Shown in pieces: positions 60,564 to 62,521 of a stretch of 64,000 nt of DNA. The notes under the pieces were generated by a model. That model saw nothing but the letters and a program-made list of their open reading frames with translations. It did not search any database and was not told the DNA's origin. Position numbers and translations under genes: made by a program. The stretch's first letter is position 1, and each line of letters starts with the position of its first letter. Location: IMG/VR virus record IMGVR_UViG_3300005613_000002, positions 62,001 to 126,000 of that record; one strand, 5' to 3'. Source of the DNA: a virus.

Positions 60564-60658
60564 CTGGGATTGAACGAGTGGTTGAAGTTACCAGCCTTGG
60601 AAACTGGTGAGGGCGATAAGATGGTTGTCCTCCGTGGGTTCGAACCCCACATCCCAGA
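60564..60658 (+). tRNA. tRNA with long variable arm, apparent anticodon UGG (Pro); Ser(GGA) register possible
   Basis: Acceptor CTGGGAT / ATCCCAG with A73, D stem AAC/GTT, T stem GTGGG / CCCAC. The anticodon arm CCAGC-CTTGGAA-ACTGG gives UGG with a C-A mismatch closing the loop. Reading it as a 9-base loop with stem ACCAG/CTGGT allows GGA. The variable region is 26 bases with a GAGG/CCTC stem. C1-G72 and A73 are Pro identity elements, while the arm is Ser/Leu-like. CCA is not encoded. Confidence 0.8.
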
Positions 60659-60660
60659 CA

Positions 60661-60803
60661 AATGAATAATGGTAGTGTTAATATTATATATGGAGTAACT
60701 TGATGAATCCTTGAAGGAACGCTTGGTGAAAAATAGTAAAAGTATATAACAACAACACGCTAGTCGAAGATGACTGGAGTTATAGGCGAAAATCCTATTC
60801 ATT
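60661..60803 (+). ncRNA. Structured RNA segment E1 after first long-arm tRNA
   Basis: 143 bases framed by AATGAATA and TATTCATT (8 bp). Internal hairpins include TCC-TTGAA-GGA, AGTC-GAAGAT-GACT and ATAGG-CGAAAAT-CCTAT; the last competes with the outer helix. It shares GTTATAG followed by GAAAA with segment E3. There is no ORF. T4 has two non-tRNA stable RNAs (rnaC, rnaD) in its tRNA cluster, a possible parallel. Confidence 0.4.
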
Positions 60804-60815
60804 GTTTATAAATAT

Positions 60816-60901
60816 GGTGATTGTTGCAGAGTGGTCAAATGCGCCAGATTGTGGTTCTGGTATCCGAAAGGATTTCGTGGGTTCGAAACCCATCATTCAC
60901 C
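60816..60901 (+). tRNA. tRNA-His(GUG) with long variable arm
   Basis: Acceptor GTGATTG / CATTCAC (one T-T mismatch) preceded by G-1 and followed by C73, the hallmark pair of tRNA-His. D stem GCA/TGC; anticodon arm CCAGA-TTGTGGT-TCTGG reads GUG; T stem GTGGG / CCCAT. The variable region is 16 bases with stem ATCC-GAAA-GGAT, a type II feature not normal for His. Confidence 0.85.
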
Positions 60902-60908
60902 CAAAAAT

Positions 60909-61021
60909 AATTAGTTACCCTGCTTGTTCCGTATGGGGTTATAAAAATACATCAATTAACGGAACTCATGATGGAGTCCTTGCCAAGAAAGTAGGATAAA
61001 GATGTTAGATATTAACTAATT
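60909..61021 (+). ncRNA. Structured RNA segment E2 after second long-arm tRNA
   Basis: 113 bases framed by AATTAGTTA and TAACTAATT (9 bp). Internal stems are TTCCGT / ACGGAA enclosing 28 bases, ACTC / GAGT and TCCT / AGGA. There is no ORF. TTTATAAATAT follows directly before the next tRNA, the same 11-mer as at the E1-tRNA-His junction. Confidence 0.4.
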
Positions 61022-61030
61022 TATAAATAT

Positions 61031-61105
61031 CGGGTAGTTATGCAGATGGCTATACAACGATGCCTTGGACGCATCGGTTCGCAGGTTCGAATCCTGCCTA
61101 TCCGA
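61031..61105 (+). tRNA. tRNA-Pro(UGG), short variable arm
   Basis: Acceptor CGGGTAG / CTATCCG with C1-G72 and A73 (Pro-like), T stem GCAGG / CCTGC, anticodon arm GATGC-CTTGGAC-GCATC giving UGG. The variable loop is 5 bases. The D stem is weak (two pairs), so function is less certain than for the next tRNA. Confidence 0.8.
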
Positions 61106-61113
61106 CATAATAT

Positions 61114-61186
61114 AGAGTAGTAGCGCAGTTGGTAGCGTACTGCATTTGGGATGCAGGGGTCGCAGGTTCAAGTCCTGTCTACTCTA
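61114..61186 (+). tRNA. tRNA-Pro(UGG), canonical
   Basis: Acceptor AGAGTAG / CTACTCT, A73, anticodon arm CTGCA-TTTGGGA-TGCAG (UGG with G37, as usual for Pro), T stem GCAGG / CCTGT. The variable loop is 5 bases. The first pair is A-U and not C-G. Confidence 0.93.
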
Positions 61187-61188
61187 CT

Positions 61189-61260
61189 GTGTTAGTAGCA
61201 TAACTGGCTAATGCGCCACACTGTGAATGTGGAGAATAGGGTTCGAGTCCCTCTAACACC
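61189..61260 (+). tRNA. tRNA-His(GUG), short variable arm
   Basis: Acceptor GTGTTAG / CTAACAC, C73, anticodon arm CCACA-CTGTGAA-TGTGG. The variable loop is 5 bases. The base before G1 is T, so the G-1 of His tRNAs is not encoded. Confidence 0.9.
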
Positions 61261-61266
61261 CAACTT

Positions 61267-61350
61267 AGTCCTATGGTGGAATTGGTAAACACATCGTCCT
61301 TTGAAGGCGACACCCGAAAGGGTTTGTAGGTTCGAGTCCTACTAGGATTG
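61267..61350 (+). tRNA. tRNA with anticodon UUG (Gln) and long variable arm
   Basis: Acceptor AGTCCTA / TAGGATT with G73, Leu-like D arm GTG/CAC around GAATTGGTAAA, anticodon arm TCGTC-CTTTGAA-GGCGA (UUG), T stem GTAGG / CCTAC. The variable region is 15 bases with stem ACCC-GAAA-GGGT. G73 and a weak first pair suit Gln, and G73 also suits Ser. Confidence 0.87.
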
Positions 61351-61353
61351 CAA

Positions 61354-61492
61354 AAGTGTGAAAAACATACTTTATTAAGACGAAAGAAGATTCAGAGATG
61401 GTTGACATTCATGTAACCAATAGCTCGATAATGGTAGGGTTATAGTGAAAAGTGATAATAATCTTCTTCCAATATGAAGTACAAGTATTGGA
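61354..61492 (+). ncRNA. Structured RNA segment E3 after third long-arm tRNA
   Basis: It begins with hairpin AAAGTGTG-AAAAA-CATACTTT (61354-61374). A core is framed by AAGAAGATT and AATCTTCTT (61384-61468) and contains hairpin GGTTGACAT / ATGTAACC. A last hairpin TCCAATA / TATTGGA (61468-61492) follows. It shares GTTATAG near GAAAA with E1. There is no ORF. Confidence 0.4.
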
Positions 61493-61505
61493 TAGTCTTT
61501 TTTAT

Positions 61506-61580
61506 TGCCCATTGGTGTAATTGGCTAACACATCTGATTTTGATTCAGAAGACTTATAGGTTCGAATCCTATATGGGCAA
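61506..61580 (+). tRNA. tRNA-Gln(UUG), short variable arm
   Basis: Acceptor TGCCCAT / ATGGGCA, D stem GTGT/ACAC, anticodon arm TCTGA-TTTTGAT-TCAGA (UUG), T stem ATAGG / CCTAT, variable loop 6 bases. U1-A72 is typical of Gln, but the discriminator is A and not G. Confidence 0.9.
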
Positions 61581-62122: not shown

Positions 62123-62521
62123 ATGAAATATAATTTATTCTTAGATGATGTTAGAAACCCGATTGATTGTGTATACTACATGTATACACCAATATATACT
62201 AGTGTTGACTGGGTGATAGTTAGAGATTATAATTCTTTTATTAAAATAATTAAAGAAAATGGTTTACCTGAAATAATCTCCTTCGATCATGATTTATCTG
62301 ATGAACATTATGACCCAAAAATGTATCATGAATCATATGATGAATTATATGATTCATTTAAAGAAAAAACTGGTTACGAATGTGCTAAATGGTTGGTAGA
62401 TTATTGTATTGATAATAATGAATTTCTACCAAAAAAAATATTAGTACATTCAATGAATCCTATTGGTAGACGAAATATTGAGTCTTATTTCGAATCATAT
62501 AATAAATCATTAAAATTATAG
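62123..62521 (+). CDS. Cyclic-phosphate-processing receiver-like (cREC) protein
   Basis: A 132-residue protein. LFLDDVRNP at 5-13, VIVRDYNSFIKIIKENGLPEIISFDHDLSDE near 31-61, GYECAKWLVDYC and VHSMNPIGRRNIESYF at the end follow the cREC_REC pattern. These are receiver-domain-like proteins with a constellation of acidic residues and a conserved HS.NP..., proposed to act on cyclic phosphates of nucleic-acid ends. Its position after a tRNA/RNA cluster is suggestive, but the function is unproven. Confidence 0.7.
   Translation: MKYNLFLDDVRNPIDCVYYMYTPIYTSVDWVIVRDYNSFIKIIKENGLPEIISFDHDLSDEHYDPKMYHESYDELYDSFKEKTGYECAKWLVDYCIDNNEFLPKKILVHSMNPIGRRNIESYFESYNKSLKL

Follow-up and report, generated by a model that had tools for sequence, protein, structure and literature searches.

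Three tRNA genes with Pro, His and Gln anticodons in a 64,000-nucleotide stretch of viral DNA (hereafter the window, bases 62001-126000 of the 321,624-bp IMG/VR virus record IMGVR_UViG_3300005613_000002) carry long, stem-forming variable arms, and stand in one cluster with short-armed tRNAs of the same anticodons. A long variable arm is generally taken to identify a tRNA as one for Leu, Ser or Tyr (or Sec), a rule which the original prediction, made from the window sequence alone, had taken as established for bacteria. We find that this rule fails across a whole clade of giant T4-like phages, and not only in three genes, and that the acceptor ends of the long-armed tRNAs follow, in most cases, the amino acid of the anticodon.

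The tRNA genes were called with ARAGORN and with the Rfam model RF00005 (gathering score 29 bits), and an arm was considered long when the variable region exceeded 10 nt and formed a stem. The cluster comprises the following genes:

60564..60658, + strand: tRNA-Pro(UGG), long arm (Pro-long); variable region 60608-60633 (26 nt) with a 9-bp V stem; C1-G72, A73; Rfam 46.7 bits
60816..60901, + strand: tRNA-His(GUG), long arm (His-long); variable region 60861-60876 (16 nt) with a 4-bp V stem; encoded G-1 at 60816, C73; Rfam 45.3 bits
61031..61105, + strand: tRNA-Pro(UGG), short arm; C1-G72, A73; Rfam 34.4 bits
61114..61186, + strand: tRNA-Pro(UGG), short arm; A1-U72; ARAGORN, Rfam
61189..61260, + strand: tRNA-His(GUG), short arm; no encoded G-1 (U at 61188), C73
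61267..61350, + strand: tRNA-Gln(UUG), long arm (Gln-long); variable region 61311-61325 (15 nt) with a 4-bp V stem; Leu-like D arm; G73; Rfam 54.7 bits
61506..61580, + strand: tRNA-Gln(UUG), short arm; A73; ARAGORN, Rfam

All seven exceed 29 bits on RF00005, and the UGG, GUG and UUG anticodons at 60564, 60816 and 61267 are read identically by ARAGORN and Rfam, in agreement with the prediction, whose arm lengths were also measured as described; the variable regions of the short-armed partners span 4-6 nt. The three long-armed genes have the ordinary 7/5 layout of acceptor and T stems, which led us to reject an 8/4 or 9/3 allo-tRNA frame for them. The anticodon stem of Pro-long contains one C31.A39 mismatch. 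A Ser GGA register, which the prediction had named as an alternative for this gene, is unsupported and was rejected, because the Pro-long orthologues share an identical 7-nt anticodon loop with UGG. His-long has a single acceptor mismatch, U5.U68, and is one sequence that falls outside the covariation tests described below. An encoded G-1 is normally needed by bacterial HisRS; the short-armed His gene of the window (61188-61260), with C73 and without an encoded G-1, represents a second tRNA-His lineage that is also found in G004, G024, G027, G034 and G036.

The window encodes T4-type head and tail proteins (portal, terminase, gp23-like capsid protein and tail sheath), and the clade is one of giant T4-like phages. 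Annotated phages are only remotely related to it (terminase ~25-28% identical among the records listed), and no close cultured relative was found by terminase match among those records, while more than 100 uncultured relatives were recovered with the capsid and terminase proteins as queries. Capsid-bearing contigs were binned in Bacteroidota metagenome-assembled genomes (MAGs), a weak hint that the clade infects Bacteroidota.

From the arrays of this record and its relatives we collected 621 unique tRNAs, of which 479 are left once Leu, Ser, Tyr, stop and odd anticodons are set aside. Long arms are present in 83 of these 479 genes, covering 14 isotypes, and all 24 clade contigs with at least eight tRNAs hold at least one such gene; a long gene of G008 that ARAGORN called 'Phe-GAA' has been assigned manually to Gln-UUG (loop CUUUGAA, shared family). 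Ten tRNA-rich phages outside the clade (KVP40, Atu_ph07, G, Aeh1, T5, SCTP-2, BcoS136, cr106, cr112 and Papperlapapp) gave 2 of 156 (Fisher p=4e-9), a count in which a probable miscall (cr112_1 'Ile AAU', v23) was kept. The difference, an approximately 16-fold enrichment as an odds ratio, is not due to chance. The trait is not confined to the clade, since two uncultured phage records of 634 and 636 kb have 10 long-armed genes among 68. The Aeromonas phage Aeh1 also has a tRNA-Asn(GUU) with a long arm and G73 (L212:6229), already in GenBank. Within the clade there are 14 long-armed Gln genes, and Thr(UGU) with a long arm was found in 28 viral contigs. This record also has long-armed Trp, Cys and Asn tRNAs and a long-armed initiator-like Met with a mismatched 1.72 pair; initiator-like Met genes of this kind, with U.U or C.U as the mismatch, are found at L001:3836-3924 (- strand) and in relatives.

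A search for the same paired sets in related phages, as the prediction had proposed, revealed that long and short copies recur side by side in most clade genomes. The window order (Pro-long, His, Pro, Pro, His, Gln-long, Gln) is broadly kept in the relatives, whose clusters read Pro, Pro-long, His, Pro, His, Gln(CUG), Gln-long, Gln. Both Pro-long and Gln-long have syntenic orthologues with long arms. Those of Pro-long come from 7 relatives, and in their alignment 98.6% of the cells are paired, with 10 compensated pairs; the V arm is paired in every sequence and two of its pairs are compensated. Eight Gln-long genes align with 99% of the cells paired; compensation is seen for 18 of 24 pairs, including three within the V arm, which is itself 96.8% paired, and the score falls several-fold when the pairing is slid. 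Taking the 83 genes together, the longest V-arm stem has a mean of 3.98 bp, against a maximum of 3.46 in 500 shuffles, and it reaches at least 3 bp in 78 of them. Judging from these compensatory changes and from stems beyond those of the shuffles, the long arms of Gln-long and Pro-long are kept by selection. The best match of a long copy is often a long-armed tRNA of the same isotype from another phage, suggesting that many of them are old.

The same data bear on the possibility that the long-armed genes are not translational at all and instead produce nuclease or synthetase decoys, primers or decaying pseudogenes. A few copies do look broken, such as the Pro gene of G008, and overexpressed viral tRNAs may compete for AriB (PMC12409363), but this is at odds with cloverleaves that are intact and covary in most helices, with the canonical anticodon loops, with cognate acceptor ends and with syntenic persistence. 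In some of the arrays examined, moreover, the long-armed gene is the sole phage-encoded copy (for example Thr and Cys in G014 and G016). We regard this explanation as very unlikely overall, and the pseudogene alternative, which the prediction had named as a refuting condition, was rejected for Gln-long and Pro-long, where pairing is kept with compensation; His-long lies outside that test.

Amino-acid identity was assessed from the acceptor ends. In E. coli, Gln identity depends on a weak 1:72 pair together with G73. Pro-long carries C1-G72 with A73 and His-long the G-1:C73 pair, following the rules for Pro and His (PMC9976931), and Gln-long carries a weak 1:72 pair with G73. The prediction had listed these elements on the long copies and noted that some are missing in the short partners, and both statements hold, with U-1 in the short His and A73 in the short Gln gene. 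Across the clade, 73 of the 83 long genes have the discriminator base that is the norm for their isotype among short-armed tRNAs (permutation maximum 52). In a separate set of contigs, picked solely by pattern (Thr-long and a few others), the discriminator matches in 16 of 20 long genes other than Thr, and all 16 Thr-long genes have U73 with C2-G71; a narrow pattern search for Trp-long gave one contig only. A simple acceptor model, built on the first three acceptor pairs and position 73, favours the cognate amino acid over Ser, Leu and Tyr in 47 of 54 genes, including the three of the window, for which Ser, Leu or Tyr identity was consequently rejected. The C2-G71 pair, an antideterminant against E. 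coli SerRS (PMC9976931), is present in 7/7 long-armed Thr, 8/8 Trp and 2/2 Gly genes versus 0/21 Ser genes, suggesting that former Ser-type bodies gained it and would thereby be blocked for SerRS by E. coli rules. Leu tRNAs have A73 in 52 of 52 cases, and Gln-long has G73.

Codon meaning was examined by comparing eight window proteins with those of four remote phages, and is standard at CCA, CAT, CAA, TGG and others. The aligned homologues have P at 90 of 140 CCA codons (S 3, L 3) and W at 34 of 74 TGG codons (S 0, L 2), and the commonest residues at CAT and CAA are H and Q. The prediction had considered that these tRNAs might instead mistranslate or recode; the long arm would then direct charging by SerRS or LeuRS, so that Ser or Leu enters at the codons for Pro, His, Gln and further amino acids. 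The D arms of several long tRNAs are like those of host Ser-UGA or Leu-UAG, and the A73 or G73 kept in some copies would suit Leu or Ser, as such recoding or ambiguous decoding would have it. It does not agree with acceptor ends that track the anticodon, with C2-G71 and the changed discriminators, which would block SerRS or LeuRS by the E. coli rules, or with the standard residues in homologues, on account of which recoding of CCA/CAY/CAA was rejected, and we consider it very improbable. Since acceptor ends follow the anticodon and codons keep their standard meaning, the long-armed tRNAs are likely to be charged with the amino acid of their anticodon. Phage-encoded synthetases were rejected as the source of this identity, as no tRNA-synt_2b or tRNA-synt_1 was found in this record (other synthetase families were not searched).

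Of the two origins offered by the prediction, namely that Pro/His/Gln tRNAs acquired long arms or that Ser/Leu-type bodies acquired new anticodons, each appears to hold for part of the genes. The long Gln, Trp, Thr and Pro forms have the appearance of Leu/Ser-type bodies whose anticodon has changed, whereas the His gene of the window and several Lys and initiator genes look like normal tRNAs plus an arm. The D arms of Thr-long and Gln-long resemble those of Bacteroidota Ser(UGA) and Leu(UAG) tRNAs from MAGs, and the anticodons UGA and UAG are one base from UGU and UUG, respectively. In overall body similarity Gln, Trp and Thr look Leu/Ser-like, yet their scores to short cognates are often similar, while His and Lys are nearer to their own isotype; the long Lys-UUU of G004 and a short Lys of another phage agree at 92% of the aligned bases. 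The cluster His genes of relatives are short-armed, with variable regions of 3-6 nt, and a pattern search for His-long orthologues found none. As the syntenic counterparts are short-armed, the arm of His-long would have been gained in place, probably as a lineage-specific event, although this conclusion comes from one sequence.

The phages could also have copied long-armed tRNAs of these isotypes from hosts that own them. MAG binning points no further than Bacteroidota, which leaves some room for this idea, but in non-array contigs of two Bacteroidota MAGs the long tRNAs examined were only Leu, Ser or Tyr (a small sample), and the exceptions in those MAGs lie in phage-like arrays. We consider adaptation to such hosts extremely unlikely.

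Our favoured explanation is one of camouflage at the level of the tRNA body, in which decoding and charging would be retained and the surface altered. Host synthetases would charge the three long tRNAs with Pro, His and Gln, and the tRNAs would read those codons, the variable-arm class having become uncoupled from amino-acid identity throughout the clade. Two routes may have led there: for Gln, Pro, Thr and Trp a Leu/Ser-type body would change its anticodon and then its acceptor end, and for the window His and some Lys and initiators an arm would be added to an ordinary tRNA. With long and short copies side by side, host enzymes that cut or modify tRNAs by recognising their bodies could not remove them all, and a repair kit encoded in the array would mend those that are cut. 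The first part of this kit is:

62123..62521, + strand: cRec (cyclic-phosphate processing Receiver) protein, 132 aa; PF20274, 84 bits; predicted RNA-end/cyclic nucleotide processing

This gene starts 542 nt past the last tRNA-Gln of the window and has homologues in ~20 relatives near the tRNA array, mostly within ~1.7 kb of tRNA-Gln. For proteins of this type a role in the RNA repair of phages has been proposed, namely the processing of 2'-3' cyclic ends (PMC7824862). In two genomes the gene beside tRNA-Gln is split by ~600 bp, perhaps an intron or insertion (L168:779-1726 in G003, and L181 in G013). The second part is a T4 Rnl1-type RNA ligase in the Lys/Tyr part of the array (L002:15768-16856), conserved in more than 12 relatives; RtcB was looked for and is absent. 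The presence of RNA-repair genes in the array suggests that the clade phages face RNA cleavage, and their conservation is consistent with nuclease escape. Phage tRNAs have been proposed to evade nucleases via changes in the anticodon loop (PMC10264068), and cleavage by AriB is also affected by body positions away from that loop (PMC12409363); together with the repair genes, these reports are the reason why we favour body-level camouflage.

The explanation as a whole, comprising cognately charged remodelled tRNAs, a defence advantage and a repair kit, seems to us evenly balanced between right and wrong. Transcription, charging and the defence advantage are its inferred parts, the rest being drawn from structure, synteny, covariation, acceptor ends, codon meaning and linked genes. 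That long arms serve to evade tRNA-targeting defences has, at best, an even chance, and the fuller statement that at least 14 isotypes have been uncoupled from arm class, with long copies maintained beside short ones as body-disguised isoacceptors that evade full host recognition, falls slightly short of that. Several observations weigh against it. According to a survey, the usual route of escape is a change in the anticodon loop and not in the arm (PMC10264068), and one VapC cuts tRNA-Ser within the variable loop, so that a long arm is not protective in general (PMC13273310). RNA-repair genes are also found beside the tRNA arrays of other jumbo phages (PMC7824862). Some acceptor ends are ambiguous, with G73 in the Pro gene of G008, A73 in the Gln genes of several relatives and U73 in the Asn gene of G000. 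In favour of the explanation, long arms are absent from all 73 Ala, Arg and Phe genes (p=4e-7). In bacteria, position 20 of the D loop contributes to Arg and Phe identity and to the Ala profile (PMC9976931), and a class II body would reshape it; the test is post hoc, however, as the zeros were noticed before a reason was sought.

A serious rival, which accounts for most of the same facts, is relaxed remoulding, in which copies in the redundant tRNA arrays of large phages drift, change anticodon on Leu/Ser bodies or pick up arms, and are translated normally with an arm that brings no advantage; such copies would be retained because most synthetases read the anticodon and acceptor end only. Alloacceptor anticodon switching is well documented in eukaryotes and mitochondria, two origin routes scattered over 14 isotypes have the look of opportunism, and mere tolerance would explain the Ala/Arg/Phe exclusion equally well. 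Leu tRNAs have lost the arm just as freely, with 35 of 87 short-armed in the clade, although this is nothing special, since 7 of 16 Leu tRNAs are short-armed in ordinary phages, KVP40 being one of those that have them. Drift of this kind does not readily account for the enrichment over other tRNA-rich phages, for compensatory changes that keep the arms over deep divergence, or for long and short pairs that recur in most genomes, and we consider it a real but lesser possibility.

Nematode nev-tRNAs, the model for the recoding alternative, bear a class II arm on non-Leu/Ser anticodons and are charged with leucine, whereas the acceptor ends of the phage tRNAs described here match the amino acid of the anticodon. 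The tRNAs by which other phages evade defences (PMC10264068, PMC11555353, PMC12409363) are likewise phage substitutes for targeted host tRNAs and structurally divergent from them, and three of the tRNAs targeted by AriB (Lys-UUU, Thr-UGU and Asn-GUU) belong to isotypes that have long arms in the clade. Those known tRNAs are altered in the anticodon loop or stem, while in the clade, where evasion is presumed, the whole variable-arm class changes. Alloacceptor remoulding in mitochondria and eukaryotes (PMC4783518, PMC3923123) also places a new anticodon and identity on a duplicated body, but the clade crosses the class I/class II boundary repeatedly, with changes in the acceptor ends too and arm gain on unchanged isotypes. 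The selC* tRNA-Cys, allo-tRNAs and 8/4 or 9/3 tRNAs (PMC7609411) are natural bacterial tRNAs with unusual frames as well, with altered acceptor and T-stem lengths, in contrast to the clade, where the 7/5 layout is nearly always kept over the 14 isotypes. Jumbo-phage tRNA arrays (PMC7824862, PMC7162821) also combine large tRNA sets with RNA ligases and cRec; a word search for the variable-arm class found 'variable' 0 times in PMC7162821 and 'variable loop' 0 times in PMC7824862. In the open-licence literature, to which the search was confined, we found no description of a long arm on a phage tRNA other than Leu, Ser or Tyr.

In these phages natural selection has tried out, one isotype after another, which synthetases can work with the arm, and those for which it is apparently excluded (Ala, Arg and Phe) are ones that use D-loop position 20. 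Should the arm shield tRNAs from host effectors, it would be a second mode of tRNA camouflage beside anticodon-loop mutation. The long-armed genes also offer ready-made parts for orthogonal translation.

The tRNA set of this record amounts to ~50 tRNAs for all 20 amino acids, with an amber-suppressor type and a transfer-messenger RNA (tmRNA) in addition. The CUA (amber) tRNA is at L003:19544-19617, and the relative G028 (L318) has a CUA tRNA with a long arm and G73; among 43 large open reading frames of the window, TAG ends one and TGA likewise one. The tmRNA lies within the phage tRNA array (L002:12007-12369; Rfam RF00023, 94 bits). Apparent 6- or 8-nt anticodon loops are seen in the tRNAs at L002:9984-10057 and L003:11233-11303, with comparable odd loops in relatives, and an IS605 OrfB/TnpB-like gene is located inside the array region at L003:1835-3133.

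The spacers between the tRNAs of the window gave no match in an Rfam search, and their folding gave no z-score below -2. The spacers 60660-60815 and 61352-61505, for which no homologue was found, have a closed-stem layout similar to that of the neighbouring spacer 60903-61030, a structured RNA that is ~75-80% identical to L194:14996-15125 (LR756504.1, a 636-kb phage), with compensatory changes in the closing stem and a possible pseudoknot.
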